NCBI GenBank assembly: GCA_947311535.1
Contig: CAMZLP010000112.1
Coordinates: 1-45,819, forward strand
Reading direction: 5' to 3'
From: an uncultured Deinococcota bacterium
Lineage (GTDB): Bacteria > Deinococcota > Deinococci > Deinococcales > Trueperaceae
DNA: 45,819 bases
A program made the translations under genes and the position numbers. This document shows positions 1,110-45,819 of this stretch, one piece after another. The notes beneath the pieces are model-generated. The model did not search any database, was not told the origin of the DNA, and saw only the letters and a program-made list of their open reading frames with translations. The number at the start of each line of letters is the position of its first letter. Within the stretch, counting starts at the first letter, position 1.

Positions 1110-1733
1110 TTAGCGTAAAAAACCTAAATGATAAGCCATCAATTTAATCATTTCGGTTGTGAAAAGCTTGAGCTTATTATGACCACTATTAGAAAAAACA
1201 GGGGCAATTTCTACTTTATAGCCCAAACCTCTGGCCAAAAAACTACTCCTATAGCTGTGATAATCGTCGGTGACTAGGGTTATTTCTTTTTTAGGGACTA
1301 AGGCTCGAGCATAGTCCAAGTTCTCATAGCTGGTTCTACTGTGCTCTTCATAGCTAATATTAGTTTTATCAATCCCTTTTTGATTTAAATACCTTGCTCC
1401 CGAAAAGCCCTCGGAGTAGTTGTCACCCCGGAGCTTGCCACCTGTTAAAACAACTCTGCTAACACAGCCAGAATTAAAAAGCTCCAGAGCTCTGTCCAAA
1501 CGGTGCTTAAAAGCTGGTGAGGGCAAACCGTTGTATTGGGCTGCACCCATTACCAAAGCGGTATCTGCTCGGCAGCTTAGGCCAGCGGCTTTGGGGTAAT
1601 AAAGAATCCCAAAAGCGTCAATTAAAGCCAGCAGGCTATAAATTAGTACAAATATTAAAAATAAGTTGCGCCAAATTTGTATTCTAGAAGTAGTTTTAGT
1701 CGTCGGATAAGCGCGATTCAATCGCTCGAGCAT
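1110..1733 (-). CDS. SanA/YdcF-like DUF218 membrane-anchored protein
   Basis: This 207-residue protein has one N-terminal membrane segment (about 24-48) followed by a DUF218 domain. Family blocks visible are 'ALVMGAAQYNGLPSP', 'HRLDRALELFNSG', 'VVLTGGK', the acidic 'SYEEHSRTSYEN' and 'ITLVTDDYHSYRS'. Relatives (SanA, YdcF, ElyC) act at the envelope, with links to barrier function and peptidoglycan precursor metabolism, but their biochemistry is poorly defined. The start lies inside the end of hisD, giving a 38-base overlap, so the two are probably translated together from one transcript. The first codons (ATG CTC GAG) sit in a GCTCGAGC palindrome shared with the hisD tail. Confidence 0.8.
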   Translation of the reverse strand: MLERLNRAYPTTKTTSRIQIWRNLFLIFVLIYSLLALIDAFGILYYPKAAGLSCRADTALVMGAAQYNGLPSPAFKHRLDRALELFNSGCVSRVVLTGGKLRGDNYSEGFSGARYLNQKGIDKTNISYEEHSRTSYENLDYARALVPKKEITLVTDDYHSYRSSFLARGLGYKVEIAPVFSNSGHNKLKLFTTEMIKLMAYHLGFLR

Positions 1734-2982
1734 GTGCCTCTAATCCTTCTCTGCGTGCCATTCTAATAGCTGCAGGGGCTAGTTCGTCAAAGACTTCTTT
1801 GTTCATATTGACCAAAGGAATAATTTTTTGAAAGTCACGGACATTAATCGAGCTAGAGAACCTAGCTGTGCCAGAAGTTGGCATTACGTGGCTGGGGCCA
1901 GCTATATAATCACCAATGGCCTCTAATGAATGATCGCCCAAGAAAATACCACCAGCATTTTTGACTTTTGGCAGCAATTCCCAAGGTTCTTTACAAAGCA
2001 AGCACAAGTGCTCGGGGGCATAGATGTTAGCTAGGTCTATGGCCTCGTCAAGGTCATGCACTAAAACAATATAACCGTTTTTAAGTGAAGTCTTGGCAGA
2101 TTCGGCATTATTGTTTTTGCCATCGGCATCTTTTAAATGTTGCAGTTGGTAATGAATAACTTCTTTTACATCATCAATTAACGCTTTGCTAGTAGTCACT
2201 AAAACCGGTTGAGCGCCTTCGTGCTCGGCTTGGGCCAAGAGGTCAGCGACAACGTGCTGAAAGTCTGCCCAATCATCAGCGATGATTAAGGTCTCGGTTG
2301 GCCCTGGTAAAGACTCTATACCAACATCACCATAGACAAGCTTTTTGGCTGCCATAGTGTATTTATTGCCAGGGCCGACAATTTTATCAACTCTGGGGAT
2401 AGTTTCGGTACCATAAGCCAAAGCAGCTATGCCAACCGCTCCGCCAATTCTATAAATAGCATTTATGCCCAAAAGCTCGGCTGTGCGGATAATCTCGGGG
2501 GCGATTTTACCTTCAGAATTGGGTGGGGTTATCAAAACGATATTTTCTACCCCAGCAACTTGGGCTGGTATTACGGTCATTAAAATGCTAGAAAATAAAG
2601 GAGCTTGCCCCCCCGGAATATAAGCGGCCACTCGCTCTATGGGGCGCATTATCTGGCCTAAAATCTCGCCATTTTCAGCGGCGATAAAGCCTTCTTTGTT
2701 TTGGTGTTCAAAATATCTACGTATGCGGATAGCTGCTAGCTTAATAGCTACTACCAGCTCATCATCAACTTCGGCTCGAGCATCTTCGAACCACTGCGCA
2801 GGAACTAAGGTATCTTTTAAACCGATGCCATCAAACTGCTGGCTATACTCAAAAACAGCCTCATCTCCCCTAGTTTTTATATCTCTGAGTATTTTCCAAA
2901 CATCTTCAAAAGTTTGATCATCAATTTCTAAACCACGTTTTGCAAATATTTCTATGGCTTCTTTGGCATTTATTTCTTTCAT
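1696..2982 (-). CDS. hisD: Histidinol dehydrogenase
   Basis: HisD catalyses the last two steps of histidine synthesis, oxidising L-histidinol to L-histidine with two NAD+ and a catalytic zinc ion in the cytoplasm. The protein is about 428 residues, normal for the family. Signature blocks are visible: 'GGAVGIAALAYGTETIP', 'VDKIVGPGNKY', 'ESLPGPTETLI', 'AQAEH', and near the C-terminus 'YAPEHL' and 'YIAGPSHVMPTSGTARF'. I chose the ATG at 2980-2982 because GGAGAG precedes it by about four bases; a TTG four codons earlier would overlap that site. No other his gene lies nearby, so histidine genes appear dispersed. It shares a divergent intergenic region with the FAD oxidoreductase at 3092. Confidence 0.95.
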   Translation of the reverse strand: MKEINAKEAIEIFAKRGLEIDDQTFEDVWKILRDIKTRGDEAVFEYSQQFDGIGLKDTLVPAQWFEDARAEVDDELVVAIKLAAIRIRRYFEHQNKEGFIAAENGEILGQIMRPIERVAAYIPGGQAPLFSSILMTVIPAQVAGVENIVLITPPNSEGKIAPEIIRTAELLGINAIYRIGGAVGIAALAYGTETIPRVDKIVGPGNKYTMAAKKLVYGDVGIESLPGPTETLIIADDWADFQHVVADLLAQAEHEGAQPVLVTTSKALIDDVKEVIHYQLQHLKDADGKNNNAESAKTSLKNGYIVLVHDLDEAIDLANIYAPEHLCLLCKEPWELLPKVKNAGGIFLGDHSLEAIGDYIAGPSHVMPTSGTARFSSSINVRDFQKIIPLVNMNKEVFDELAPAAIRMARREGLEAHARAIESRLSDD

Positions 2983-3078
2983 AAAACTCTCCAAAACTCG
3001 TATCTAGCTACTATTCTAACCTGTTGCATAAAGATTATTTAAGACTTTTAGTTGCCAAACATTAATCCTTATAGCGAT

Positions 3079-3084
3079 TATAAT
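3079..3084 (+). promoter_or_regulatory. -10 box TATAAT for the FAD oxidoreductase, leaderless
   Basis: A perfect TATAAT lies 7 bp before the ATG at 3092. A transcript starting 6-8 nt after the box would begin at or next to the start codon. There is no Shine-Dalgarno. No clear -35 at 17 bp is seen. Confidence 0.6.
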
Positions 3085-3091
3085 TGTTTTT

Positions 3092-4225
3092 ATGAACGTA
3101 GTTATTATCGGGGCAGGTATTATTGGGGCAAGTATTGCTTACCACTTGAGCAAGCTAGGGTTAAATGTGACTCTGCTCGAGCGCAATCCTAACCCTGCTA
3201 TGGGCAGCACCGCCAAGTCAGCGGCTGGCATTAGACATCAGTTTAGCCATATCCAAAATATTAAGATGTCTCAATACAGCGCCAAGGAATATGCTAATTT
3301 TGAGCAATTAACAGGCAGAAGCGCCAATTACCGCAAGCATGGTTATTTGTTTTTGATTGATAAAAATTTAGAAAAAGACTGGCAAAAACAGATGAAATTG
3401 CAGCGTAGCTTAGGGGTAGAGCTTGAATATTTAAGTGCAAATGAAACTAAGAAGCGTTTTGCTTATATTAATACTGAGGGCTTAGTAGGCTCGAGCCTAG
3501 GCCATGATGACGGCATAGTAGAGCCTAACGCCATAACATTTGGCTATATTAAAGCTGCTAAGGCCTTGGGGGCAAGGCTATTTTTGGATACAGAAGTCTT
3601 GAGTTTAAATTACAAAAATAATCAATGGCAAATAAAAAGCAAAAAACAAGATTTTATTGCCGATGCAATAATAAATGCCGCTGGTCCAAATGCTGCCAAT
3701 ATTGCCAAAATGGCAAATTTAAACATTCCCGTTTTGCCGTATCGGCGTAATATCTATATAACTGGACCGATAAAAGATTTCAAACATCCTAGCCCTTTAA
3801 TAATTGATATGACTACGGGGGTATATTTGCGTAGTGAGGGTGAAAGGATAATATTTGGTTTATCTAATCATGATGAAATTGCAGCTTTTAATGAAACGGT
3901 AGATTGGGATTGGCTCGAGCATAACCTATCTTTAGCCCTCCCCCGTTTTCCTTTTTTAAATCATGCTGGGCTGGATTATAAATCATGCTGGGCTGGGCTT
4001 TATGCTATTACGCCCGACCACTTTCCAATTTTGGGTAAAATGCCAAATAGTAGTTTTTACAATGCCGTTGGCTTTTCTGGGCACGGTGTCCAACATGCTG
4101 CAGCCGTTGGTAAAATTTTAGCAGAAGAAGTTACTAAAAATACAGTCACAAGTTTTGATATTAATGATTTTAGATTTGAACGCTTTAGTAGAAAAAAGCA
4201 AATCTACGAACACAATATTGTCTAA
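3092..4225 (+). CDS. FAD-dependent oxidoreductase of the DAO family (sarcosine/glycine oxidase-like)
   Basis: The protein is 377 residues. The N-terminus is a textbook Rossmann FAD-binding site, 'VVIIGAGIIGASIAYHLSKLG', followed by the acidic ribose contact in 'LLERN' and the flexible 'STAKSAAGIRHQF' loop typical of sarcosine and glycine oxidases. A second FAD contact, 'AIINAAGPNA', is near residue 200. The C-terminal 'FYNAVGFSGHGVQHAAAVGKILAEE' is the usual isoalloxazine-side motif. The enzyme probably oxidises a secondary or primary amine of an amino acid in the cytoplasm; the substrate cannot be read from sequence. It is followed after 35 bp by a 2-hydroxyacid dehydrogenase, which may act on the related keto or hydroxy acid. 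Confidence 0.85.
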   Translation: MNVVIIGAGIIGASIAYHLSKLGLNVTLLERNPNPAMGSTAKSAAGIRHQFSHIQNIKMSQYSAKEYANFEQLTGRSANYRKHGYLFLIDKNLEKDWQKQMKLQRSLGVELEYLSANETKKRFAYINTEGLVGSSLGHDDGIVEPNAITFGYIKAAKALGARLFLDTEVLSLNYKNNQWQIKSKKQDFIADAIINAAGPNAANIAKMANLNIPVLPYRRNIYITGPIKDFKHPSPLIIDMTTGVYLRSEGERIIFGLSNHDEIAAFNETVDWDWLEHNLSLALPRFPFLNHAGLDYKSCWAGLYAITPDHFPILGKMPNSSFYNAVGFSGHGVQHAAAVGKILAEEVTKNTVTSFDINDFRFERFSRKKQIYEHNIV

Positions 4226-4244
4226 TTAAGAAATTTAAAAATGC

Positions 4245-4250
4245 TAAACT
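4245..4250 (+). promoter_or_regulatory. -10 box TAAACT before the 2-hydroxyacid dehydrogenase
   Basis: TAAACT ends 10 bp before the ATG at 4261, and no Shine-Dalgarno is present. This fits a leader of only a few nucleotides and independent transcription despite the close upstream gene. Confidence 0.45.
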
Positions 4251-4260
4251 AGCTTTTATT

Positions 4261-5232: not shown

Positions 5233-5819
5233 TCGGTAACTAAGCCATTTAGACAAAGGTCAAGAGAGGTTTTTAGTTCTTTTTGTATACAGCGCTCAGG
5301 GTGATAATTTGCCCAGTACAAAGTACTTAAGAATATACTGTTAGCAACTGTTCTTGATAATCGTTCGCTAGAATAGTCTTGACGTATTTGGCCTTGGGCT
5401 CGAGCCGATTCAAGATTCTGCTTAATTAATGGAACAATTGCCAAAGATAAAAAAGCATGTTTAGACCTATCTGAATTTGGGTTTAATAGCTCAAAGCAAA
5501 TTGGCATTACCAAATGCTTATTTTCATAAGCAAATATTGCAAAACGCTCCGCAATGCAATAAATTATTTCTATGGGTGATTTATTAGCTAATTTTTTAGA
5601 AACTTCAAGTTCTAAAGAGTCAAAATACTGGGCCACATGAAAAATCAAAACTTCTTCCTTGTGCCTAAAGTAATTAAAGAAACTTCCCCGAGATACTCCC
5701 GCCATTGTCGCAATTTCTGATACGGTTGTATTATCAAAACCCTTTTCAGCAAAAAGTCGCATAGCATTAGCATAAATCTTAATCTTTACTTTTCTTTTCT
5801 TTTCTTCACGCACTTTCAT
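5229..5819 (-). CDS. TetR/AcrR-family transcriptional regulator
   Basis: This 196-residue protein has the TetR N-terminal helix-turn-helix: 'AMRLFAEKGFDNTTVSEIA' followed by 'AGVSRGSFFNYFRHKEEVL' (about residues 18-58). The C-terminal ligand domain is unrelated to any family I can name. TetR proteins normally repress neighbouring genes and are released by a small ligand. No clear Shine-Dalgarno precedes the ATG. A 38-bp inverted repeat lies 26-63 bp upstream (5845-5882) and is the obvious candidate operator. The only neighbours are the convergent dehydrogenase and rplT, so the regulated target may be itself or elsewhere. Confidence 0.88.
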   Translation of the reverse strand: MKVREEKKRKVKIKIYANAMRLFAEKGFDNTTVSEIATMAGVSRGSFFNYFRHKEEVLIFHVAQYFDSLELEVSKKLANKSPIEIIYCIAERFAIFAYENKHLVMPICFELLNPNSDRSKHAFLSLAIVPLIKQNLESARAQGQIRQDYSSERLSRTVANSIFLSTLYWANYHPERCIQKELKTSLDLCLNGLVTD

Positions 5820-7633: not shown

Positions 7634-8451
7634 ATCTTTCTTTAGGCTATTCACCATGTCCAAATGATAGTTTTATTTTTTATGCGCTTGCCAATCAAAA
7701 AATTGCAAAAAATATCAATTGGGATATTAGGCTTTTAGATGTTGAAGCTTTAAATCAGTTAGCTAAGATGAGTGTTTTAGACTTGAGTAAAATTAGCTAT
7801 CATGCCTATGGCCATTTTGCCAAAGAGTACATAATGCTTAGTGCTGGTGGTGCTCTTGGTAAAGGGGTTGGGCCTTTAATTGTTAGTAAAGATAATTTAA
7901 CAGATTTAAATAATAAAGTTATTGCCATACCTGGTGAACTAACTACTGCTAATTTGTTACTTAAATTATCACAAAATAAAAATATTAAAACTATAGAACT
8001 ACGCTATGACAAAATAATGCCAGCGGTAGCTGCTGGGCAAGTAGATGCAGGTTTAATTATCCATGAGTCTCGATTTACTTTTGCTAATTATGGCTTAAAA
8101 CAATACTTGGATTTAGGTGATTGGTGGGAAAAGGAAACTGGTCATCTGCTACCCCTAGGTGGCATAATGGCTAAGCGCAGTTTAGGAACTAAGGTTTTAA
8201 GAGAAATAAATACTGCCCTAAAAGATAGCATTGCTTATGCTTATCAAAATCGCCAAGAGGCCCAGCCTTATATAGCCAAACATGCTACCGAAATGAGCCA
8301 AGAGGTTATGCAAAAACATATTGATTTATATGTTAACGACTATTCTATTGACCTTGCCAAGGCAGGCAAGGCAGCGGTAATAGATATCTTTGCTCGAGCC
8401 CAATCACGTGGATTTATAGCTGAAATTAATGAACCATTGTTCTTAGACTAA
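7630..8451 (+). CDS. mqnD: 1,4-dihydroxy-6-naphthoate synthase (MqnD)
   Basis: MqnD converts cyclic dehypoxanthinylfutalosine to 1,4-dihydroxy-6-naphthoate in the futalosine pathway of menaquinone synthesis. The 273-residue protein opens with the hallmark 'LGYSPCPNDSFIFYAL'. It continues with 'ISYHAYGHFAKEYIMLSAGGALGKGVGPLIVSK', 'IAIPGELTTANLLLKL' and 'VDAGLIIHESRFTFANYGLKQYLDLGDWWEKETGHLLPLGGI', all family blocks of this periplasmic-binding-protein-like fold. The other mqn genes are not in the window. The route is used by Thermus, Deinococcus and several other phyla. Confidence 0.93.
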   Translation: MNLSLGYSPCPNDSFIFYALANQKIAKNINWDIRLLDVEALNQLAKMSVLDLSKISYHAYGHFAKEYIMLSAGGALGKGVGPLIVSKDNLTDLNNKVIAIPGELTTANLLLKLSQNKNIKTIELRYDKIMPAVAAGQVDAGLIIHESRFTFANYGLKQYLDLGDWWEKETGHLLPLGGIMAKRSLGTKVLREINTALKDSIAYAYQNRQEAQPYIAKHATEMSQEVMQKHIDLYVNDYSIDLAKAGKAAVIDIFARAQSRGFIAEINEPLFLD

Positions 8452-8934: not shown

Positions 8935-10071
8935 ATGCCAATCTACTTAGACTACGCAGCTACTACCCCCATTGACCCAGATGTCTTTGAGGCTATGTTG
9001 CCATTTTTAAAAGATGATTTTGCTAACCCTGCCAGCTTGCACCAAATGGGTCAAAAAAGCCGTAAAGCTGTAGAGAACGCTCGGGAGCAAGTTGCTAATG
9101 CTATTGGGGCAAATAGTAAAGAGATTATTTTTAATGCTGGAGCTACTGAAAGTATTAATCATGTTTTACAATCTATCGCCCATAAATATCCTAATAAAAA
9201 GATTATTAGCAGTCAGCTCGAGCATGCCGCTACAATATCTACTCTAAATTCATTGGCAGCAAATGGTCATGAAGTTGTGTTTTTAAGCCCTGACCAAAAT
9301 GCTGCAATTAGCCCCGAGGCTCTGTTAAAAGAAATTGATAACAATACAGCCTTAGTTAGCCTAATGCTTGTTAATAATGAAACCGGAGCAATAACAGATA
9401 TTGCTAAAATTTCAGAAATTGCTAAAAGTTTTGGTGCTTTAGTATTTTCTGATGCAGTGCAAGCCTTTGGGCTGCAAGACTTAAATGTAAATAAGCTCGG
9501 AGTTGACTTTTTAGCACTATCGGGGCATAAGATTTATGGACCAAAGGGTGTTGGGGTTTTATATATTAGAGACGGCTTAGAAATTGACTCTTTTGTTAAA
9601 GGTGGCAAGCAAGAACGGGGTTTGCGTGCCGGAACCCTTAATACAGCTGCAATTGTGGCTATGGGTAAAGCTAGTGAATTAGCCACAAAAGATTTAGAAA
9701 TAAATTACAAGCATCTTAGTAAAATACAAAAACAATTTGAAAAAGAATTATTAGAAAATATTTTAGATATTGAAATTAATGCTCTTAATACTGAGCGCAG
9801 CCCCAAGCAAACTAATATTTGGGTTAAAGGTATTGATGGCGAGGCTTTATTATTTACGCTAGATTTATTAGGGGTTTATGCTAGTGCTGGCTCGGCTTGC
9901 TCGGCGGGTAGCCTCGAGCCCAGCCATGTTTTAACTGCTATGGGCTTGTCCAAAGACCAAGCTAAAGCTAGTATTAGGTTTTCTTTTGGAAAATATACTT
10001 TTGACAAAGAAACCCATAAAGCCGCATTATTATTTAAAGAAGCAGTTGAAAGATGTCGCAAATTTGCATAA
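8935..10071 (+). CDS. iscS: Cysteine desulfurase, class I (IscS/NifS type)
   Basis: The enzyme removes sulfur from cysteine with PLP to supply Fe-S clusters and tRNA thiolation. It is 378 residues long. It shows 'IYLDYAATTPID' at the start, 'NNETGAITDI', the PLP lysine in 'SGHKIYGPKG' (about K199), and the catalytic cysteine in 'SAGSACSAGS' (about C322) on a long class I loop followed by 'SHVLTAMGLS' and 'ASIRFSFG'. The final 55 residues are complete. The start is placed at the ATG immediately after the Rrf2 stop. I use the symbol in the family sense; nifS is an alternative. No iscU or iscA follows, unlike the standard isc operon. Confidence 0.93.
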   Translation: MPIYLDYAATTPIDPDVFEAMLPFLKDDFANPASLHQMGQKSRKAVENAREQVANAIGANSKEIIFNAGATESINHVLQSIAHKYPNKKIISSQLEHAATISTLNSLAANGHEVVFLSPDQNAAISPEALLKEIDNNTALVSLMLVNNETGAITDIAKISEIAKSFGALVFSDAVQAFGLQDLNVNKLGVDFLALSGHKIYGPKGVGVLYIRDGLEIDSFVKGGKQERGLRAGTLNTAAIVAMGKASELATKDLEINYKHLSKIQKQFEKELLENILDIEINALNTERSPKQTNIWVKGIDGEALLFTLDLLGVYASAGSACSAGSLEPSHVLTAMGLSKDQAKASIRFSFGKYTFDKETHKAALLFKEAVERCRKFA

Positions 10072-11236: not shown

Positions 11237-12103
11237 ATGATTAGCCCAAGAATGCGATTAGTTTTGGATAGATATACTCTTGCTTCTAAAGCTTTAAGCC
11301 GCCATAGTGGCGAAAGAATGGCTACTGAAGCCGGCCAAAGTGTAGAATTTCATGATTTTAGGCCTTATCAGAAGGGTGACGAGCTTAGATATGTAGATTG
11401 GAAAGTCTATGCGAGAACTGGCAAAATCTATACTAGGCTTTACCAAGCAGAGCGTAATATTGCTCTTTATCTTGTTTTGGATACTAGCCCAAGTATGTCC
11501 ATAGGTCATAAGGCCAAATTTGCTACGATTGTCGCAAATATGATTAGCTATGTTGCCCAAAAAGATAGCTTATGCCAAGTCTTTTTATTTAATGGTGATT
11601 TTAGCCAAGCCGCCCACGGACGCAATAAAGTTTCTGATACTTGGTCATTTATTGATGCTGCCCCAGCTGTATCTGCGGAACCTAGCCCAGTAGCTGCCAT
11701 TAAAAATTTTGCTTTAAATTCCAAATTTGGCTCTGGTTCTGGCTTGGCTCTAATTATTTCTGACCTTTTTGACGAAGCATCATTGCGACCTGCCCTAAGC
11801 GCTTTACGAGCTAGGGGCTTAGATGCTAGTTTTTTACAAATAATGGCCGAAGAAGACATTCATCCTGAAGAGGATAGGCTCGAGCTTATAGACATAGAAA
11901 CAAATAATAGCTTGAGAGTTAGTGTTGACGAAGTCAGAGCTTATAAGCAAGCTGTTCATAAATTTTTAGCTAGAACACGTTCTAGTATTATGCAGGCAAA
12001 ATTTAAACATTTGCTACTTATCTCGGTTGATAGTGATGACAATCTGCTCGAGCAAAAAGCATTTTATGAATTGATAAAAGCATCTATATTAGTTAAACGC
12101 TAA
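11237..12103 (+). CDS. DUF58 / von Willebrand factor A domain protein, MoxR partner
   Basis: The protein is 288 residues with no membrane segment. It has the DUF58 signature 'FHDFRPYQKGDELRYVDWKVYARTGKIYTRLYQAERN', followed directly by a vWA metal site 'LYLVLDTSPSMS' (DxSxS form). The remainder follows the vWA fold: 'ALIISDLFDEASLRPALSALRARGLDASFLQIMAEEDI'. MoxR-DUF58 pairs are thought to mature or regulate protein complexes, often at the envelope; the target here is unknown. It is 130 bp after moxR with only a weak GAGAGA site. Two GCTCGAGC copies lie in the last third (11878, 12046). Confidence 0.9.
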   Translation: MISPRMRLVLDRYTLASKALSRHSGERMATEAGQSVEFHDFRPYQKGDELRYVDWKVYARTGKIYTRLYQAERNIALYLVLDTSPSMSIGHKAKFATIVANMISYVAQKDSLCQVFLFNGDFSQAAHGRNKVSDTWSFIDAAPAVSAEPSPVAAIKNFALNSKFGSGSGLALIISDLFDEASLRPALSALRARGLDASFLQIMAEEDIHPEEDRLELIDIETNNSLRVSVDEVRAYKQAVHKFLARTRSSIMQAKFKHLLLISVDSDDNLLEQKAFYELIKASILVKR

Positions 12104-33659: not shown

Positions 33660-34211
33660 ATGGACAAAAACAAGTTGGAAGATTTAATCTCGAATATGAT
33701 TGTAGAACTTGGTGAAGATATAAACCGTGAAGGAATCCTAAAAACACCTGAGCGGGTGGAAAAATCTATGCGCTTTTTGACAAATGGCTATCACAAAGAT
33801 TTTGATAGCATAATAAATAATGCCGTTTTCAAGGCAGAATGCTCTGAAATGGTAATTGTAAAAGATATTGAGTTTTACTCGCTTTGCGAGCACCACATGC
33901 TGCCATTTTTTGGTAAAGCCCATATAGCCTATATACCAAATGATAAAATCTTGGGCTTGAGCAAATTTGCTCGAGTCAGTGATTTCTTTGCCAGACGCTT
34001 GCAAGTTCAAGAACGCCTGACTAGGCAAATTGCCGACAGTTTAATGGAGCTATTAGAACCCAAAGGCCTAGCGGTAATAACTGATGCTCAGCATTTGTGC
34101 ATGATGATGCGTGGGGTAGAAAAACAAGGCTCGAGCACAAGGGTACAAGCAATGCGAGGGGTATTTAAAGACAATGCCAGTACCAGAGCTGAGTTTTTGG
34201 CCTCAATTTAA
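33660..34211 (+). CDS. folE: GTP cyclohydrolase I
   Basis: FolE converts GTP to 7,8-dihydroneopterin triphosphate, the first step of folate (and queuosine) synthesis. The protein is 183 residues, a normal bacterial length. It has '[25 protein letters not shown]', the zinc and catalytic block '[23 protein letters not shown]', '[29 protein letters not shown]', and the second zinc cysteine in '[28 protein letters not shown]'. Zinc ligands Cys-His and Cys are all present, so it is the zinc-dependent FolE1 type. It is a single gene with a leaderless promoter and a strong hairpin after its stop. Confidence 0.97.
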
Positions 34212-35482: not shown

Positions 35483-36715
35483 TTACAAAAAATCCCCAAA
35501 GAAATCTCTGGTTTTTTCTAATACATTAATAAAAATATCCACCTCGGCTTCAGTATTATAAAAATAGAAACTGGCTCGAGCTGTAGATTGCACGTTTAAG
35601 GCTTTCATAAGTGGTTGAGCACAATGATGGCCTGCCCTTATTGCAATACCCTCAGAATCCAAGGCAGTGGCTACGTCATGAGGGTGAACGCCGTCAATAT
35701 TAAAGGAAATTATCCCACCACGGTCATCGCCCTCTGGGCCGTATAAACTAATACCTTTTAAAGTTTTTAATTTGCTAAGTGCATAGTTTGTTAGTTTTAC
35801 ATCATGCTCGAGCACATTCTCCATACCTACATTATTAAGATAGTCCACCGCAGCCCCAAGACCAATAGCCTCTGCAATATTAGGAGTACCAGCTTCAAAA
35901 CACATTGGTATATCAGCATAAGTACTAGTTTCTATAGTAACTTTACGAATCATCTCTCCCCCACCCAAAAATGGTGGCATAGAACGCAATAGCTCTGCTT
36001 TGCCCCAAAATGCCCCAACTCCTGTTGGTGCTAACATCTTGTGGCCAGAGATTGCATAAAAATCTGCAGCTAAAGCTTGTACATCAACTTTTAGATGAGG
36101 TGCCGCTTGAGCACCATCAACTATCATTAATGCAGAATATTCATGAGCTTTATCTGCAAAATACTTTATCGGATTAATTGTACCTAATACATTAGACATA
36201 TGAGCAATTGAAACAATTTTAGTTTTGTCATTTAATAAAGATTCAAAATGCTCCAAATCAAGCCGATAATCATCTTTTAAACGAATTGCCCGTATTTTGA
36301 TACCTGTCTCTTGGGCAATTAAATGCCAAGGAACTACATTTGCATGATGCTCAGCATGGTTTATTATGACTTCATCACCAGCTTTTAAATATCTCTTGCC
36401 CCAGCTATAGGCAAATAAATTCATAGCTTCTGTGGTATTACGAGTAAATATTACTGATTCAGAACTAGGAGCATTTAAAAACCCAGCAACTTTTTCTCTA
36501 GCTTCTTCATACATCTGAGTTGCTTCTACAGACAGCGTATGCGCCCCACGGTGTACATTTGCATGATTATTATAGTAATAATTCATCATTGCTTCTACAA
36601 CCTGTTTCGGCTTTTGCGAAGAAGCTGCATTATCAAAATAAACAAGTGCCTTCCCATTAATCTTACGATTCAAAATAGGGAAATCCTGTCGCAATTTTTC
36701 AACATTTATTGGCAT
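35483..36715 (-). CDS. sufS: Cysteine desulfurase, class II (SufS type)
   Basis: SufS takes sulfur from cysteine for Fe-S assembly, normally passing it to SufE or SufU. The 410-residue protein has 'DFPILNRKINGKALVYFDNAASSQKP', 'NNHANVHRGAHTLS', 'EHHANVVPW', the PLP lysine in 'AISGHKMLAPTGVGAFWG', and the catalytic cysteine in 'IRAGHHCAQPLM' on the short class II loop. 'ARASFYFYNTEAEVD' closes the family pattern. No other suf genes are adjacent. A TAAGCT -10 box lies six bases before the ATG, with no Shine-Dalgarno. The window thus holds both a class I (8935) and a class II enzyme. Confidence 0.95.
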   Translation of the reverse strand: MPINVEKLRQDFPILNRKINGKALVYFDNAASSQKPKQVVEAMMNYYYNNHANVHRGAHTLSVEATQMYEEAREKVAGFLNAPSSESVIFTRNTTEAMNLFAYSWGKRYLKAGDEVIINHAEHHANVVPWHLIAQETGIKIRAIRLKDDYRLDLEHFESLLNDKTKIVSIAHMSNVLGTINPIKYFADKAHEYSALMIVDGAQAAPHLKVDVQALAADFYAISGHKMLAPTGVGAFWGKAELLRSMPPFLGGGEMIRKVTIETSTYADIPMCFEAGTPNIAEAIGLGAAVDYLNNVGMENVLEHDVKLTNYALSKLKTLKGISLYGPEGDDRGGIISFNIDGVHPHDVATALDSEGIAIRAGHHCAQPLMKALNVQSTARASFYFYNTEAEVDIFINVLEKTRDFFGDFL

Positions 36716-37977: not shown

Positions 37978-39222
37978 TTAAGCTTCAAACTTTCTTTGCC
38001 TTATCCAAGTTCTTATTTCAGTTGCTGACATTAATTCAGGATTACCTAAATCAGAGTTTTTGGCATTTTCTAGCTGTGCTGGCAAATGATTTATCAGCAA
38101 ATCCAAATCTTTAGAGCTTTGAATTTCTTCATCTAACACCTTAGCCATTTCTAAATTATGGGGGATATTATGTTTTCTTACTGCAAGCAAAAGGCCTTTT
38201 AGCAATGTTTCCCAAGTGGTCATAGGACCCTGCACAATAGAGGCGGATTCGGCAGCTGAATCTATAAAAGCGAATGGTACTTTGGCAAATTTTTGTTTAC
38301 TAGCCAAAACCGCCAAAATCCAATCGGTATCAAAAGAGAAATCAAAGACGGCTGGGTCAGCAATAATATCTGCTAGTAAATCTGCACCATATAGTTTAAA
38401 GGCAGCCTGTGTATCAGATATGCCTTGGCTAAAAATCTCCTGACCAATCATACGCTGTATATGTCTTAGTAAAACTATGCCTACACCCCAACGTGCTTCT
38501 TGTTTAACCAAAACAGCCCGTGGGTCTTTTCTATCACCCCAAACTGCTTCTATGCCCTCTTCTAGATAAGGTTTAAGTAGTAAGCCAATTTGACCTAAAT
38601 GCACAGAATTATCAGCATCGGTATAAATAACAAGATCATGCCCATCTTTGAGAGCCTCGTGAGCACCATAAATAATTGCACCGCCCTTACGTGAATCATC
38701 GGCAGATGCAAGCTTTTTTAGTGGTCCTTTATCTGTTGGAACTGCATCAGACAAAAATAATACTTTTAGATTTTTAGCTAGCGGATGCCCTTTGATAATT
38801 TCTAATGCCAGCTTGCCACTACCATGAGGGTCACCATCATCAACTGCATATAGAGTGTAATCAATAGGACTGGATTTTATAGCCCATTGTATTTGCTCGA
38901 GCCCAGTCCTAAGAGAATCCTCTCCATTCGGGTTGTTCTTAGTTTTGGGCATAAGCCTATTATGCTCACCCCACATCGCAAAAACAACGGCTATTTTAAG
39001 AGGCTTTCTAATGCTAGAAATATAGTTCTTGGATTCTACTAATTTAGCAGCAATACGAAACTCAAGTGGTGCACTAGAGTTAGCGAGCGCTTCAAGCTTA
39101 TCTTCTGCAATATTAAGATCTAGCAATTCCTCGGATAAAACATAAAGCGATTTCTGGTCTTCTTCTTTTGTAAGATCAAATTCTCGCTTAGCATTTACAA
39201 TTAAATCATCAATTCTTGTCAT
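37978..39222 (-). CDS. GT-A fold glycosyltransferase (family 2-like)
   Basis: The protein is 414 residues, cytosolic. After about 65 helical residues comes a GT2-type domain: 'KIAVVFAMWGEHNRL', 'PIDYTLYAVDDGDPHGSGKLALEI', and the metal-binding DxD in 'DLVIYTDADNSVHLGQIGLLLKPYL'. 'SDTQAAFKLYGADLLADIIADPAVFDFSFDTDWILAVLA' corresponds to the acceptor and catalytic region seen in dolichyl-phosphate-glucose synthase-like enzymes. It probably moves a sugar from a nucleotide donor; the acceptor is not evident. The C-terminal 100 residues are helical and charged. It has no close operon partner. Confidence 0.8.
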   Translation of the reverse strand: MTRIDDLIVNAKREFDLTKEEDQKSLYVLSEELLDLNIAEDKLEALANSSAPLEFRIAAKLVESKNYISSIRKPLKIAVVFAMWGEHNRLMPKTKNNPNGEDSLRTGLEQIQWAIKSSPIDYTLYAVDDGDPHGSGKLALEIIKGHPLAKNLKVLFLSDAVPTDKGPLKKLASADDSRKGGAIIYGAHEALKDGHDLVIYTDADNSVHLGQIGLLLKPYLEEGIEAVWGDRKDPRAVLVKQEARWGVGIVLLRHIQRMIGQEIFSQGISDTQAAFKLYGADLLADIIADPAVFDFSFDTDWILAVLASKQKFAKVPFAFIDSAAESASIVQGPMTTWETLLKGLLLAVRKHNIPHNLEMAKVLDEEIQSSKDLDLLINHLPAQLENAKNSDLGNPELMSATEIRTWIRQRKFEA

Positions 39223-39335: not shown

Positions 39336-40658
39336 TTATTTTCTTATAAAATGAATTTTGTCAAATCTCTTTCTAAACTTACTTACATCTATTGCAACTT
39401 TTTCGGGTACCTCATTTTCTACTAATACTCTAGCCACATATTCGGCAATTTTAGGCATATCAGATATCTGCATACCCCAACGTACAATTTCTGGAGTTCC
39501 AAAACGCAAACCGTTTAGCCCATTATCAACTGCTTTGATAGGCAAAGCAATACCTGAGCTCAATATATTTGCCCGCCTTAAAAGCTTGGCAGCAGCTTGC
39601 CCGTCAACATATTTTTCTGCTTTAATTGCAAACTGATGTGAGCTTGTGGCAGCCCCTTGTTTATGAAAAACATCTACGCCTTTTTCTAACAATGAATTTG
39701 ACAAGGCTCGAGCCGAATCTAGCATTGCTCTTGCATAGTCCTTTCCGTAATCTTTCCAATCCAATAGGCAAATAGCTAAAGCAGCCGACTTTGCAACATC
39801 AAAATTAGCAGTCAAACCAGGATAAGCAATCTTGTCTATCCGCTCTGCTAAAATAGGATCATTAGTTAACAGCAAAGCAGAAGCAGGCCCCCCCAAACTT
39901 TTATAAGTACTAAAAGACATAAGGTGCGCACCTTGCTCTAATGGTTGTGGCCAAACTTTACCAGCAAATAAACCACTAAGATGGGCCGCATCAAAGTGAA
40001 CATAGACTCCAAATTCATCAGCAATTTTTCTTATTTCAGACACAGGGTGAGGAAATAAATTCAGGCTTCCGCCAATAGTTATTAGCTTTGGGCGCAATTT
40101 TTTAACTTGTTCATAAAGTGCATTTAAATCTATCGTATAGTTTACGGCATCAACTGCTGCATAATGGATTTCTAAACCATATAGCCCAGCCACTCCAGCC
40201 TGATGATGGCTAACATGCCCGGCTATTTCGGGTGCTGGCACAATTATTTTATCGCCTGGCTTAGTTGTAGCCATAAATGCATACAAATTAGCTAAGGAAC
40301 CAGAACCCAGCCTAATTTCTGCATATTGACAATTAAAAACCTCGCAAGCAAGTTGAGAGCTGATAATTTCAATTTTCTCTATGGCCTCGAGCCCCATCTC
40401 ATATTTATCATTGGGGTAACCTAAAGATGGCCTCGAGCCTAATCCACTAGCAAGCAACCTTTCGGCTTTTGGATTCATGATATTTGTGGCTGGGTTTAGA
40501 TTTATAGATTGCTCATTGTGGATATAATTGTTTTTGGCAATTAGTTTTAATATTTCTTGCTCTAAACCATCATTGCTTAGTTTACTATAACTTTGCTCAA
40601 GCCTGTTTATATAATTCTGAGACCAACTAGGCATCCAATCTCGTTTTATTATAGTCAT
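39336..40658 (-). CDS. Serine hydroxymethyltransferase-like PLP enzyme, diverged paralog
   Basis: The protein is 440 residues. It keeps the SHMT-like fold type I order: 'LNPATNIMNPKAERLLASGLGSRPSLGYPNDKYEMGLEAIE', 'AEIRLGSGSLANLYAFMATTKPGDKI', 'EIAGHVSHHQAGVAGLYGL', 'VHFDAAHLSGLFAGKVWPQPL', and a lysine in 'LMSFSTYKSLGGPASALLL'. The canonical SHMT PLP site reads [14 protein letters not shown], as in glyA at 20478, so His before Lys is Tyr here and the Arg-Gly-Pro loop is changed. The folate-binding end is also different. It may be a transaldolase or aldolase on another amino acid rather than a true GlyA. GGAGAAAT precedes the ATG. Confidence 0.8.
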   Translation of the reverse strand: MTIIKRDWMPSWSQNYINRLEQSYSKLSNDGLEQEILKLIAKNNYIHNEQSINLNPATNIMNPKAERLLASGLGSRPSLGYPNDKYEMGLEAIEKIEIISSQLACEVFNCQYAEIRLGSGSLANLYAFMATTKPGDKIIVPAPEIAGHVSHHQAGVAGLYGLEIHYAAVDAVNYTIDLNALYEQVKKLRPKLITIGGSLNLFPHPVSEIRKIADEFGVYVHFDAAHLSGLFAGKVWPQPLEQGAHLMSFSTYKSLGGPASALLLTNDPILAERIDKIAYPGLTANFDVAKSAALAICLLDWKDYGKDYARAMLDSARALSNSLLEKGVDVFHKQGAATSSHQFAIKAEKYVDGQAAAKLLRRANILSSGIALPIKAVDNGLNGLRFGTPEIVRWGMQISDMPKIAEYVARVLVENEVPEKVAIDVSKFRKRFDKIHFIRK

Positions 40659-40707: not shown

Positions 40708-41049
40708 TTAGTCAGGCTCTATCCTCAAGGCAGCCTGCTTTTTAACAGCGGTTTCAAAAATATCTAAAAACCTATCAATCGCTTCAGATTTAAAAGCTGC
40801 TTCTTTTTGCATCTTTGTAATTTTAGGTTCAGCCTTTTTTAAGATAGAATTTAACTGCTTTAGTGATAAACAATAGCTCTCCAAAGCCAAAACCGCCCTT
40901 CCTTCAGCGTAAATAGCAGATTCAACAATAGAAAACTTATTTAAATATTTAATTTGCTCGAGCTCGAGCCTACCCAAATATATTAAAACGTCAGAATCAA
41001 CTACAAAATCCATCATATTGTTATCATTAGTCAAAAAGAAATCTAGCAT
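40708..41049 (-). CDS. Small orphan helical protein
   Basis: The protein is 113 residues, mostly helical and charged from residue 22 on: 'GRLELEQIKYLNKFSIVESAIYAEGRAVLALESY', then a Lys/Glu-rich stretch. There is no signal or membrane helix. The opening 'MLDFFLTNDNNMMDFVVDSDVLIYLG' offers a second start at the internal Met pair (41011-41016). I do not recognise a family; the 'VVDSDVLIYL' phrase is PIN-like by chance but the rest does not fit PIN. It has two overlapping GCTCGAGC copies (40956 and 40962). It sits 37 bases after the Imm51 gene on the same strand. Confidence 0.5.
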   Translation of the reverse strand: MLDFFLTNDNNMMDFVVDSDVLIYLGRLELEQIKYLNKFSIVESAIYAEGRAVLALESYCLSLKQLNSILKKAEPKITKMQKEAAFKSEAIDRFLDIFETAVKKQAALRIEPD

Positions 41050-42327: not shown

Positions 42328-42333
42328 AGTTTA
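42328..42333 (-). promoter_or_regulatory. -10 box TAAACT for the 80-residue orphan gene, leaderless
   Basis: On the minus strand TAAACT ends 6 bp before the GTG at 42319-42321. Confidence 0.4.
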
Positions 42334-42496: not shown

Positions 42497-43579
42497 ATGA
42501 AAAAAATATTCTTTTTGCTCATAATCACAATCTTTAGTTTATCTGCTTGTCAACAAACAACAGCAAAAAATACTAAAACAATTAAGCTACAAAAACCTGC
42601 AGATAATCAGATATATTTTGGGGCATTTCCTGATTTTGGTGGACCCGAGGATGAAGTAAGCAAAAAACGAATTGAAGATTTTGAAGACCTAGTTGGCAAA
42701 AAAATTGCTTGGGCTTACTTTTCTCAAAATTGGTACGACGGTATTATTTATCCAAAACAAGCTATTGCAAGCATTAGCTCAGCCGGCACTGTGCCTTTTG
42801 TACGGCTAATGGCCAGAAGTGATGAAATACAAAACCATTCTGAACAAAAGTTTTCCTTGCAGCATATTATTGACGGCAACTTTGACAAAGAATTAATAGC
42901 TTGGGCTCGAGCCTGCAAAAAAGACGATATCCCAATACTAATAGACTTTGCCGTAGAAGCAAATGGTGATTGGTTCCCGTGGAGTGGGGTTTTTAATGGG
43001 GGCAGCAAATTAGACGGCTATGGTGACTCCCATTACCCCGACGGCCCCGAGAGATATCGAGACGCTTATCGCTACATAATTGATATTTTTAGAGCCGAAA
43101 ACGTAAACAACGTGACTTGGTTTTTTCATTTTAACCTTGCCCCATTTCCTGATAAGCCTTGGAATCAAGCTAAAAACTACTACCCCGGTGACGACTACAT
43201 AGATTGGATTGGTTTTAGCCTTTATGGTGCCCAAACTTTAAGTGAAGAATGGGATGGCTTGGATTTTTCTTATCAACTAAAGGAGCATTATAAATCGATA
43301 TTTGCGGTTACTAACAATAAACCTGTGGCTTTGCTCGAGTTTGGCGTTACCGACCATCACCCCGAAGGTAGTAAAGCTGATTGGCTAAATGACGCCTTTA
43401 AAACCATAGTCAATAATCCCTATGTCAAATTCAGCGCCATATCAGCTTGGCACGAAAGCTGGGAAAACGAAGACGGAACTATGACCACAATAAAACTTGA
43501 CTCTTCAAAACAGAGTTTGGATACTGTTCAAAAGTGGCTTAGCGAAAAACAATTTATAAGCACTTTGAAATTCAAATAA
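42497..43579 (+). CDS. Lipoprotein glycosidase, GH26-like
   Basis: The protein is 360 residues. A lipoprotein signal ends in LSAC (Cys 18), so it is lipid-anchored after export. The catalytic domain has 'FGAFPDFGG' at the start, 'PFVRLMARSD', a glutamate in 'AVEANGDWFPWSGVFNGG' (about E154) matching the GH26 acid/base site (E-x-N-G-x-W), 'YIDWIGFSLYGAQ', and a second glutamate in 'ALLEFGVTDHHPE' (about E281) as nucleophile. GH26 enzymes are mostly beta-mannanases or related beta-glycanases; the true substrate is not given by the sequence. AAAGG precedes the ATG. Confidence 0.8.
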   Translation: MKKIFFLLIITIFSLSACQQTTAKNTKTIKLQKPADNQIYFGAFPDFGGPEDEVSKKRIEDFEDLVGKKIAWAYFSQNWYDGIIYPKQAIASISSAGTVPFVRLMARSDEIQNHSEQKFSLQHIIDGNFDKELIAWARACKKDDIPILIDFAVEANGDWFPWSGVFNGGSKLDGYGDSHYPDGPERYRDAYRYIIDIFRAENVNNVTWFFHFNLAPFPDKPWNQAKNYYPGDDYIDWIGFSLYGAQTLSEEWDGLDFSYQLKEHYKSIFAVTNNKPVALLEFGVTDHHPEGSKADWLNDAFKTIVNNPYVKFSAISAWHESWENEDGTMTTIKLDSSKQSLDTVQKWLSEKQFISTLKFK

Positions 43580-43707
43580 TTCAAACTACTTGCTCAGGTA
43601 TAGGAGCTTTTTAAGGATTGGAGTCCAGCCTCAGGGCAACCGCATCAAAATATCTGCCATCTAATACTCGCTTTATTTTAACATTGACTTAAGCTCAATA
43701 ATCAATC

Positions 43708-45819
43708 CTATTGAGGTGTTACTTTAAGTAAAAGTGGGTTATTAGCGGGAATTGTAATATTAAAAACAGCTGTTTCCTTGCTTATTTCACCCCATACAAT
43801 GTCATTTTCATAATCTAAGACATCATAAATTTTTCCAGGCTCTAAACCACGTATTTCAATTTCTCCGCTGAAAGATTCGCCATAAGGAGGTACAAACAGA
43901 TAATAAATTGAACCATCTTTAGAAATTGCATGTGAACCCGGCTTGTCATAGGTCAAATCATATAAATTCAAATAATTTCCCTGACTCAATCTCAGCTCAT
44001 TATAAAGCCCAAACCAAGTTTTATAGAGCTCTAAGTCTCCAACTCCTAGCGGATCATTTTTACGCCATTGCGTCTCCCAATAATAGCTTTGATAAACATC
44101 TCCTAAGCCAAGAATAAGTGGAAACATATAATTCATATCAAGATTTAAATCCTCACCTGCTCCTTCAATATGGTCGCCGTTAACAGCCGCATCTGGGCCC
44201 AGCAATGCTTTATACAGCTTAGTGCGGACTTCGTGAGGGCGATAGGCTAATACGTCTGGATCAGAAGTTGATACCATAGAAAAATAAGGGGCGATCCAAA
44301 CTGTTATAACTCCACCACAGGGGCAAAATTCTAAAGGAAAATCTGGCACAATGGCTCGAGCAGCTATATAGCTAACACGATAAAAAGCATCACCCTCTCG
44401 TTCTGTATCATGCGGAGAATCATGACGATTAGAGTAATCGGGTGGTACAAGAAATGCTCCGTCTAAAAAGAAGCGATCAATTCCCCAACCGCCTTCAGCT
44501 TGAGGTTTAACAAGTTTAGTCACACAATCACTAACATAATCAAGAGCTTCTGAGACAGTTGGATCCATTATAAAGCGTTCCCAATCATCTTGAAAAAAGC
44601 TAGCATCTTTATTTTTAATAAACCAATCAGGATGTTTTGCCAATAGCTTTTCATCTCCAAATCCTGGGTCTAACCACAAGGAAATCTTAAAGCCTTGAGA
44701 GTGTAAATCGGCAATCCAATCAATAAATTCTTCTTCATTGGTATATATTTCAGAGTTTGGGCTACAAGAACCTGTGCCATTATCCCAACCAGAATCAATA
44801 GCAAGCCATTTGAGCCCTAAATCTTTGGCAATATACAAGCGTTCATCAACTTCTTCCCAATCTCCTGGATTTAGACCGCCTGCTCTTTCTTCCAGGCCAA
44901 AACTATCCCAATGAGCTTCATAGTCAACTGGGTTATATTGTCTTATAAGCAAGCCAAGATCCCGCAACATCCGACCATAAACCTCCACCCCATCATAAAA
45001 ATCACCATTGTGCAAACTAATGCTGCTTTGAACAGTAGTAAAACTTTGCCTAGGCTCGAGCCTAGGCAAGTCATTAGTTTCAAGAACACCAAGTCGAAGC
45101 AAGCCATTCTTTTGAGTTTCTACAGGCACAGCCAAAATTTGAATACTTGCTTCTACCACGGCTACCGTAAAAGCAGCTTCTGCACCCCAAACAGTAGTAA
45201 TTGGCGTACCACCCCCGCCCCAATGTCCATCAAATTCAGGGTTAGATACATCACCACCGTTATAATTAGTAAAATTACTATCAGCAGTTATATCCCAAAT
45301 TCGATCAGATAAACCATTTCCATAAACTCTACCCATAGAGAACATTTTAAAATCATAGGGATTAGAATTAGCAGAAATCAAGCTACGATCCAGCAATAAA
45401 TTAGCGGACCAAACTTTATCAACTTGCAGTTCTTTTTGACTAATATTAGTAAATTTGGCTCGAGCCAAGAAAGTGCTTGGATAATTATCGTATAAATCAA
45501 TATTAAGGCTAAGCTCAAGGCTATTAGCCTCTGCTAAAATTATTATTCGCTCTCCGTTTCCAAACTGTCCAACTATCGGCTCTTTATGATGCTCTTTTAG
45601 TTTAAATCTATTAATAAGTACACCATCTACCTCAATTTGAAAAGCTGCGGCATTGGCAGTAATTTGCTGGCCATTTTTATAAATAGCCAATTCTAATTGA
45701 TCGCTAAAACGAAACTGAAAAGGGCCATTATCAATCACAAAGCCATCTTGTGCTAAAACTTGAGTTTGAAAACCTAAAACAGCTAAAAGACCAATTACAA
45801 TGAACAAGTTTAATAGTAA
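43708..45819 (-). CDS. Exported GH36/melibiase-like alpha-galactosidase, cut by the right edge
   Basis: About 703 residues are visible. The frame is open to the window edge (Leu-Leu-Leu-Asn before the first TTG), so the true start is probably outside. The signal peptide is '...LFIVIGLLAVLGFQTQVLAQ'. An N-terminal beta-sandwich is followed by a (beta/alpha)8 domain: 'LKWLAIDSGWDNGTG', 'LHSQGFKISLWLDPGFGD', and 'GGWGIDRFFLDGAFLVPPDYSN' with the likely nucleophile aspartate, then 'FPLEFCPCGG' and 'VSTSDPDVL' with the likely acid/base. The C-terminal part is a small beta domain. These blocks fit GH36-type alpha-galactosidases. It is convergent with the GH26-like gene; together they could degrade galactomannan-like polymers, but this is inference. 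Confidence 0.85.
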   Translation of the reverse strand, partial: LLLNLFIVIGLLAVLGFQTQVLAQDGFVIDNGPFQFRFSDQLELAIYKNGQQITANAAAFQIEVDGVLINRFKLKEHHKEPIVGQFGNGERIIILAEANSLELSLNIDLYDNYPSTFLARAKFTNISQKELQVDKVWSANLLLDRSLISANSNPYDFKMFSMGRVYGNGLSDRIWDITADSNFTNYNGGDVSNPEFDGHWGGGGTPITTVWGAEAAFTVAVVEASIQILAVPVETQKNGLLRLGVLETNDLPRLEPRQSFTTVQSSISLHNGDFYDGVEVYGRMLRDLGLLIRQYNPVDYEAHWDSFGLEERAGGLNPGDWEEVDERLYIAKDLGLKWLAIDSGWDNGTGSCSPNSEIYTNEEEFIDWIADLHSQGFKISLWLDPGFGDEKLLAKHPDWFIKNKDASFFQDDWERFIMDPTVSEALDYVSDCVTKLVKPQAEGGWGIDRFFLDGAFLVPPDYSNRHDSPHDTEREGDAFYRVSYIAARAIVPDFPLEFCPCGGVITVWIAPYFSMVSTSDPDVLAYRPHEVRTKLYKALLGPDAAVNGDHIEGAGEDLNLDMNYMFPLILGLGDVYQSYYWETQWRKNDPLGVGDLELYKTWFGLYNELRLSQGNYLNLYDLTYDKPGSHAISKDGSIYYLFVPPYGESFSGEIEIRGLEPGKIYDVLDYENDIVWGEISKETAVFNITIPANNPLLLKVTPQ

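Follow-up and report, generated by a model that had tools for sequence, protein, structure and literature searches.

A HIP-like palindromic octamer with a CTCGAG core in a Trueperaceae genome

The palindromic octamer GCTCGAGC occurs 41 times as an exact match, from position 1303 to position 45465, in a 45,819-nucleotide stretch of DNA (contig CAMZLP010000112.1 of assembly GCA_947311535.1, referred to here as the window) from an uncultured low-GC bacterium of the Trueperaceae (Deinococcota), related to Truepera. GCTCGAGC is a highly iterated palindrome (HIP)-like element outside cyanobacteria, of which the matches listed in the open-access literature give no description: the palindrome is in excess genome-wide, it lies both inside genes, in each of the three phases, and outside them, and its deviations are biased to its ends. 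The explanation that we favour, and to which we give slightly less than an even chance, is a palindrome of HIP kind with two layers, in which a CTCGAG methylation core would be combined with a second, host-specific symmetric reader.

Abundance and DNA-level signature of the octamer

Sixty CTCGAG cores are present in the window. The flanks G..C that complete the octamer are found around 41 of them, the other flanks being GT (7), CC (4), AC (3) or others (5), which leaves 19 imperfect cores. These figures (41, 19, 60 and 41/60) reproduce those of the initial annotation of this DNA, which had reported about 41 octamers, about 19 near copies and about 60 cores, about two thirds of them flanked by G...C. 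Dinucleotide-preserving shuffles of the window (n = 100) contained 0.27 octamers on average and 3 at most, and models with the sites masked predicted 0.24-0.33 octamers and 2.5-2.8 hexamers. The earlier expectation of about 0.2 octamers is in line with these values and the GC content is, as stated, in the mid-30s (36.8%), whereas the estimate of about 5 hexamer cores is higher. In the window, GCTCGAGC ranks first in excess over an order-2 Markov model, both among palindromic octamers and among all octamers.

The excess is not limited to the window: the 191 contigs of the assembly, 2,717,585 bases in total, carry 1,592 copies of GCTCGAGC and 41 of the reversed word. The density is 0.59 per kb genome-wide and 0.89 per kb in the window, which is thus the denser of the two. 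A genome-wide count near the Markov expectation, or copies restricted to the window, had been named beforehand as observations that would speak against a highly iterated palindrome; neither corresponds to what we find. In a 298-kb sample, composed of the window and 22 stretches of the same genome and analysed with Markov models built with the sites masked, we counted 185 GCTCGAGC for about 2 expected and 273 CTCGAG for about 18 expected, while the runner-up palindromic octamer reached 7 for 0.8 expected.

Within the called frames of this sample, GCTCGAGC is found 46, 26 and 99 times in codon phases 0, 1 and 2, as compared with 1.8, 0.3 and 0.2 predicted by codon independence; the commonest, phase 2, reads CTC GAG. 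Of the copies, 171 are coding (0.66 per kb); the remaining 14 lie in non-coding DNA or at the edge of a gene, and outside coding DNA the density is 0.36 per kb. Single-base deviants are in excess solely at position 1 (35 vs 3.8 expected) and position 8 (44 vs 4.1), their number over positions 2-7 (40) being at or below expectation (56 with an order-2 model, 44 with an order-1 model). Since all three phases are enriched far beyond codon use and the deviants in excess are confined to positions 1 and 8, the excess of GCTCGAGC acts at the DNA level. In numbers, density and deviation pattern, the element thus behaves as the highly iterated, HIP1-like palindrome first proposed.

Cytosine deamination at methylated CpG was considered as a source of variants and set aside, the TG and CA variants (7 and 9, for 8.9 and 8.1 expected) showing no clear excess. 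CCCGAG/CTCGGG is found 74 times in the own-genome sample for about 32 expected, yet outside the octamer context.

Octamers are spaced slightly more evenly than at random in G000 (coefficient of variation (CV) of the gaps 0.87 vs 1.00, P 0.03) and in G099 (CV 0.80 vs 0.95, P 0.02), genomes being designated here by G numbers. The same holds for the CTCGAG gaps of G006 (CV 0.89 vs 1.01 at random, 0/2,000 simulations). No evenness was detected in G008 (P 0.75), and it was not significant for the window alone (P 0.21).

A longer symmetric context

The surroundings of the octamer were measured at synonymous third positions of 172 in-frame sites of the own genome, with both halves folded together and the expectation taken from the residues. 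The strongest preferences are for G at -1 (62 seen, 12.9 expected, z 15.3) and G at -6 (69 vs 18.7, z 13.4). They are accompanied by A at -2 (z 7.3), T at -3 (z 7.9), G at -5 (z 4.0), T at -8 (z 5.9), T at -9 (z 4.0), A at -10 (z 4.5) and T at -12 (z 5.5), so that the preferred context reads roughly TnATTnGGnTAG-GCTCGAGC-CTAnCCnAATnA. In phase 0 the octamer encodes Ala-Arg-Ala, and GCC is used for the second Ala at 44 of 46 sites, for 9.7 expected. Both halves carry the extended context when taken separately. All nine positions are positive in the window by itself, some of them weakly, and the remaining stretches by themselves agree. At 19 sites from freshly sampled contigs, the preferences at -1, -2, -3, -5, -6 and -8 recur, while those at -9, -10 and -12 do not. 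As the fresh contigs repeat the context as far as -8, a length of 24 bp is well supported and one of 32 bp is likely.

With a flank matrix built from the same octamers that it scores, the flank score is 3.8 for octamers, 1.8 for CTCGAG with one correct flank (83 sites), -2.1 for inner one-offs (41), -3.2 for CTCGAG with no correct flank (9) and -3.9 for random positions. The context is graded and dyad-symmetric, and does not consist of copies of one element.

The long context is strong in the own genome only, other genomes showing weaker preferences. In G099, z reaches 4.9, over the nearest three bases, and there is no long dyad. Counted from the hexamer, G006 favours A at -1 (z 7.1) together with G at -2, T at -3 and G at -6 (z 3.1-4.3), and Meiothermus favours G at -3 (z 3.3) and at -6 (z 3.9). 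G at -6 is also preferred in G095 (z 3.4), and G at -1 (z 4.2) and -5 (z 3.0) in G073, the sites of G073 and G097 being too few to judge.

A methyltransferase is unlikely to read 24-32 bp. Because the context is probably too long for such an enzyme, we infer a second, symmetric reader. It is possible, if on balance doubtful, that most of the roughly 1,600 copies represent a 24-32-bp dyad signal, carried mainly at synonymous positions and read by a putative symmetric protein, on top of an ancestral CTCGAG-methylation site of the Deinococcota; this proposal rests on the sample of 172 in-frame copies. Among phages, the 14-mer TAGGCTCGAGCCTA, an extended form of the octamer, was found in 7 viral stretches, once in each, with no HIP-like density.

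Table 1. Copies of GCTCGAGC and imperfect CTCGAG cores in the window.
Feature	Position	Strand	Remarks
GCTCGAGC	1303-1310	.	exact match
GCTCGAGC	1724-1731	.	exact match
GCTCGAGC	2774-2781	.	exact match
GCTCGAGC	3175-3182	.	exact match
GCTCGAGC	3489-3496	.	exact match; extended form TAGGCTCGAGCCTA at 3486-3499
GCTCGAGC	3913-3920	.	exact match
GCTCGAGC	5398-5405	.	exact match
GCTCGAGC	8392-8399	.	exact match
GCTCGAGC	9216-9223	.	exact match
GCTCGAGC	11878-11885	.	exact match
GCTCGAGC	12046-12053	.	exact match
GCTCGAGC	13830-13837	.	exact match
GCTCGAGC	14171-14178	.	exact match
GCTCGAGC	14399-14406	.	exact match
GCTCGAGC	16043-16050	.	exact match
GCTCGAGC	17993-18000	.	exact match
GCTCGAGC	19610-19617	.	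exact match
GCTCGAGC	20494-20501	.	exact match
GCTCGAGC	21414-21421	.	exact match
GCTCGAGC	24239-24246	.	exact match
GCTCGAGC	25785-25792	.	exact match; extended form TAGGCTCGAGCCTA at 25782-25795
GCTCGAGC	26698-26705	.	exact match
GCTCGAGC	30576-30583	.	exact match
GCTCGAGC	31200-31207	.	exact match
GCTCGAGC	31411-31418	.	exact match
GCTCGAGC	32230-32237	.	exact match
GCTCGAGC	32658-32665	.	exact match
GCTCGAGC	34129-34136	.	exact match
GCTCGAGC x2, overlapping	34306-34319	.	exact match; starts 34306, 34312
GCTCGAGC	34398-34405	.	exact match
GCTCGAGC	35574-35581	.	exact match
GCTCGAGC	35806-35813	.	exact match
GCTCGAGC	38895-38902	.	exact match
GCTCGAGC	39706-39713	.	exact match
GCTCGAGC x2, overlapping	40956-40969	.	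exact match; starts 40956, 40962
GCTCGAGC	42905-42912	.	exact match
GCTCGAGC	44354-44361	.	exact match
GCTCGAGC	45054-45061	.	exact match; extended form TAGGCTCGAGCCTA at 45051-45064
GCTCGAGC	45458-45465	.	exact match
19 imperfect CTCGAG	6954-43339	.	core match; at least one flank not G/C
Imperfect CTCGAG, starts (part 1)	6954, 8504, 9913, 14287, 15928, 15981, 16123, 16591, 19129, 21621		
Imperfect CTCGAG, starts (part 2)	25486, 27801, 29583, 30222, 32695, 33970, 40386, 40432, 43334		

Two genes of the serine hydroxymethyltransferase family also lie in the window (20478-21695 and 39336-40658), one being a strong match and the other falling under the curated cut-off.

Distribution of the core and candidate methyltransferases

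We counted GCTCGAGC and the reversed word in 111 genomes of the order, among them those of the family Trueperaceae (f1, Deinococcota) and the genus Meiothermus (g29). Four f3 genomes carry 1,814-3,827 GCTCGAGC against 0-3 reversed words, and two genomes of genus g19, one of them 58% complete, carry 3,176 and 2,981 against 1 and 3. Meiothermus shows a moderate excess. In the 27 genomes of genus g30, presumably Thermus, the octamer is depleted (2-33 vs 14-194 reversed), opposite to most relatives. The hexamer CTCGAG reaches 5.7-6.7 per kb in G003, G006 and G008 (f2, f3), about one per 150-175 bases, and 2.5-3.3 per kb in two Meiothermus genomes and G023 (g27), with little flank preference in either group. 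In the sampled genomes outside Trueperaceae, the enriched unit is the core CTCGAG. The initial annotation had noted neither that this core, rather than the octamer, is common to the order, nor the longer dyad around the octamer in the own genome. In several Trueperaceae the octamer is the dominant form: the share of CTCGAG in octamer form is 185/273 in the own genome, 118/156 in G099, 17/18 in G073, 36/69 in G095 and 10/17 in G097; it is weaker in G108 (18/47), G082 (6/22), G109 (4/17), G083 (4/18) and G096 (7/40).

An all-against-all comparison of proteins from loci with PF07669 matches in 22 genomes yielded a family of about 550 residues, M1, common to five octamer-enriched genomes. The three members scanned contain the domains N6_Mtase, Eco57I and M_Eco57I_C. 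Over the 111 genomes, M1 (best E < 1e-80) is present in 9 Trueperaceae and 14 of 18 Meiothermus; in this set the G095 match is in two pieces, that of G098 lies at a contig end and that of G028 is marked with one TAG. The gene adjoins that of the V-ATPase G subunit in several Trueperaceae, and also dnaG primase in G083. No M1 relatives were found in the phage collection.

A second family, M2, was found across the order in G108, G073, G025, G026, G027, G031, G040 and G044, and in diverged form in G008. The genome of G108 is complete; there, M2 directly precedes an XhoI-type endonuclease (PF04555) whose coding sequence is broken into two frames that overlap. Identity between M2 and a gene annotated paeR7IM is about 52%, and the PaeR7I family is the annotation given to several relatives of the neighbouring endonuclease. 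The recognition sequence of PaeR7I is CTCGAG, the fifth base of which the enzyme converts to 6-methyladenine, as a passage of PMC3031569 reports. As judged by this likeness, M2 is of PaeR7I type (CTCGAG). The NPPF/NPPY motifs place M1 and M2 in adenine-type families, and their nearest solved relatives are BseCI, adenine-specific enzymes and TaqI. In the 18 Meiothermus genomes, M1 (14) and M2 (4: G027, G031, G040, G044) are mutually exclusive, which points to M1 also reading CTCGAG; three of the four M2 are 83-89% identical, so that the exclusion may reflect few independent events. The simplest reading, with the specificity of M1 taken from this exclusion, is a replacement of M1 by M2, with CTCGAG as the probable target of both.

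Among 80 genomes searched, PF04555 was matched in G108 alone; as it was not found in the other eight M2 genomes, M2 looks solitary outside G108. In G108 itself (locus L253, 5854-8287), the M2 frame is open and the endonuclease broken, apparently a restriction system decaying to a solitary methyltransferase. Restriction endonuclease families gave 0 matches among 20 genes beside M1 or M2, three of which have no Pfam match at all; the neighbour of M1 in G034 weakly matches staphylococcal nuclease (21.5 bits, cut-off 21). In a tree of 37 M1 relatives, not resolved at every fork and with members of other phyla interspersed, the Meiothermus and Trueperaceae rows are each grouped with one label change (support 89/88). 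The neighbours of M1 relatives on six plasmids (84 records matched) proved too weak for use: five are a small protein without Pfam match, one of which weakly matches (E 0.0014) the PADLOC model matched by the XhoI remnant as well, and the sixth is a methylase-type protein.

CTCGAG is kept in 38/96 cases in aligned Trueperaceae M1/M2 loci, compared with 16% for GC-matched hexamers and 12/41 for the reversed word, and in 100/140 cases in aligned Meiothermus M2 loci, compared with 45%. In Meiothermus M1 loci the value is just 190/574 vs 27% (rank 97 of 482). These counts use sequence pairs, which are non-independent.

Taking as enriched a genome with at least twofold more octamers than reversed words, we found enrichment in 8 of 10 Trueperaceae with M1 or M2 and in 2 of 29 without (39 genomes, Fisher P 2.9e-5). 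By genus, the proportions are 7/8 and 2/9 in Trueperaceae (P 0.012), and 10/11 and 7/20 over the order (P 0.003) when the diverged M2 of G008 is counted as an enzyme. The Trueperaceae exceptions are the own genome and G100, enriched without enzyme, and G108 and G098, under twofold with enzyme. Judging from these genes and their associations, we regard the core CTCGAG as a probable site of DNA methylation across the wider group.

A number of observations weigh against this view. The twofold threshold was drawn after the counts were known, and kinship was handled at genus level only. Full-length M1 or M2 was not found in the own genome, whose assembly is 92% complete, so that the absence is unproven, and the own V-ATPase G gene adjoins a different gene where several relatives have M1. 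The f2 and f3 genomes, densest in CTCGAG, are without M1, and G008 alone among them has a (diverged) M2. With a masked hexamer model, eight enzyme-less Trueperaceae (one 10-13-kb stretch each) stand at 0.9-3.5 times expectation, six with enzyme at 1.6-3.3 times and G096 at 16.6 times; in these small samples, the hexamer level does not separate high-GC Trueperaceae with and without enzyme. Beyond the order, one of four sampled M1 genomes is enriched (M1 relatives 42-47% identical): G116 (Myxococcota) reaches 6.7 times expectation by the masked model, in all phases, and G114, G115 and G119 are unenriched. As the reversed word is a poor control where it is avoided, G116 had been rechecked with masked Markov and codon models. 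The enzyme by itself does not create the excess.

The 7-Mb genome of G116 contains 18,912 CTCGAG for 162 GAGCTC, the reversed word being strikingly rare. Octamers were also counted in the genomes of 50 loci among the best 80 of 164; besides Deinococcota and G116, GCTCGAGC exceeds the reversed word in G145 (locus L156, 181 vs 15) and G154 (locus L178, 301 vs 57), which carry distant M1 relatives.

As to other enzymes, a cytosine methyltransferase was rejected: PF00145 is matched in 8 of 22 genomes, and the strongly enriched G073, G095, G096 and G099 are without a match. The sole own-genome match is a HaeIII-methylase-like C-terminal fragment of 109 residues at a contig end (L205, 13357-13686), which, judged by likeness, is not a CTCGAG enzyme. 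PF01555 is matched in 11 of the 22 genomes, and not in the own one. PF07669/PF02384 matches in the own genome are two type IIG-like proteins of about 1,000 and 900 residues, which also account for the two weak matches of the M2 search, a contig-end fragment and two weak matches (393 and 233 residues). The own-genome candidates are the HaeIII-like fragment and the type IIG-like proteins only, no search for PF02086 (Dam type) having been made. The methylation role put forward initially is thus backed by solitary CTCGAG-type methyltransferases in relatives, while none was found in the own genome.

Relation to known elements and rival explanations

GCTCGAGC shares with HIP1 (GCGATCGC, cyanobacteria) a palindromic octamer around a hexamer core and hundreds of copies per Mb, as parts of PMC4390886 describe. 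The one-offs of GCTCGAGC lie mostly at positions 1 and 8 and its extensions preserve the palindrome; a like tendency to the first and last positions is described for HIP1 in a section of Elhai 2015 (PMC4390886). The hexamer core is the target of a solitary methyltransferase in HIP1, which may also be the case for GCTCGAGC. However, GCTCGAGC is not HIP1 proper: it has another sequence and occurs in another phylum, its named relatives being Trueperaceae and Meiothermus (among the best 80 of 164 loci). The enzymes are PaeR7I-like and of M_Eco57I_C type instead of GATC and CGATCG enzymes, the cognate enzyme was not found in the GCTCGAGC genome (92% complete), and the context spans 24-32 bp instead of the one or two bases a side of the HIP1 extensions tabulated in PMC4390886. 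M2 of G108 matches the layout of the PaeR7I/XhoI system, the methyltransferase standing directly before the PF04555 endonuclease; unlike in that system, the sites are enriched and not avoided.

CTCGAG is absent from the main text of Elhai 2015 (PMC4390886), which in the passages concerned still terms HIP1 function a mystery and sets out a G-meC repair model. A passage of PMC3497702 states, citing unpublished work, that octamers reach the frequency of HIP1 in very few bacterial genomes, so that other such octamers may have been noticed unprinted; in the part of PMC3025956 that concerns it, HIP1 is used merely as a marker. The initial annotation knew of no description of GCTCGAGC in a HIP role, and among the matches listed in the open-access literature we likewise found none of it as a genome motif in Meiothermus, Trueperaceae or elsewhere outside cyanobacteria.

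In the two-layer explanation that we prefer, CTCGAG would be the target, in the order, of the solitary N6-adenine methyltransferases M1 and M2, giving CTCGm6AG; this layer rests on association in relatives. In the own genome, the methyltransferase may lie in the missing 8%, have been lost or be of a third type. The second layer would be a putative host-specific DNA-binding protein of two-fold symmetry, favouring sites whose surroundings fit its footprint; the flank preference observed is G..C in several Trueperaceae and 24-32 bp in the own genome. Hosts that carry the same enzyme family differ in flank strength (small samples, with one Meiothermus genome per enzyme), so that the enzymes are probably not what sets the flanks. 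Sites would arise by point mutation in place, and a DNA-level bias (site-steered repair, recombination or uptake) would keep or spread them, and not repeat insertion or codon use. Composition, codon use or a mobile repeat as the source of the count can be practically dismissed: the commonest phase does read CTC GAG, but the masked model accounts for about 2 of the 185 copies in 298 kb, every phase is enriched far beyond codon use, and the graded surroundings are not those of a copied element.

For the second layer, the main alternatives are DNA uptake and a chromosome-organising protein, either of which could be the reader. If the competence machinery preferred GCTCGAGC with its flanks, copies would accrue through biased uptake and recombination (molecular drive). 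The genomic density of 0.59 per kb is of the order known for the uptake signal sequence (USS) of Haemophilus and the DNA uptake sequence (DUS) of Neisseria. Like these, GCTCGAGC has a graded context, its core being strong and its flanks weaker; where one flank base is wrong, the surroundings are still intermediate, and neither M1 nor M2 was found in the own genome. We nevertheless consider this unlikely, since known uptake signals have a non-palindromic, directional core, whereas that of GCTCGAGC is palindromic and methylation-associated in relatives, core one-offs are not in excess, and the tie to M1 and M2 would be left unexplained. Less likely still is an abundant dimeric nucleoid or segregation protein that binds the dyad, with selection keeping about one site per 1-2 kb. 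The two-fold symmetry over 24-32 bp, the somewhat even spacing in G000, G099 and G006 (hexamer) and the conservation of CTCGAG above matched hexamers in Trueperaceae loci are consistent with such a site; the binding protein is putative, however, the octamer of G099 has no long dyad, and the spacing is not even in G008 nor, by itself, significantly so in the window. Elhai's ratchet, in which G-meC-directed mismatch repair accumulates G, a methylated core and C as a functionless by-product, appears very improbable here. The layout of a methylated hexamer within G..C is that of HIP1, and the outer one-offs and a density near one per kb also agree with HIP1 as parts of PMC4390886 present it. Yet M1 and M2 are adenine-type and PaeR7I methylates A, so that no G-meC would be formed, a reach of 6-12 bp outward is unexplained, and Meiothermus, with the same enzyme families, shows little G..C preference.

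Existing models can be tested on a second HIP lineage, lying outside cyanobacteria, whose core differs and whose chemistry is probably adenine rather than cytosine. Under the G-meC ratchet one would expect methylated cytosine and a context without far flanks, neither of which is favoured by the present comparison. Meiothermus can be cultured, and as its methyltransferases look solitary and interchangeable, removal of the gene could tell cause from effect. The long symmetric context suggests that elements of this kind may be bound by a reader acting across the genome, a novelty if true.

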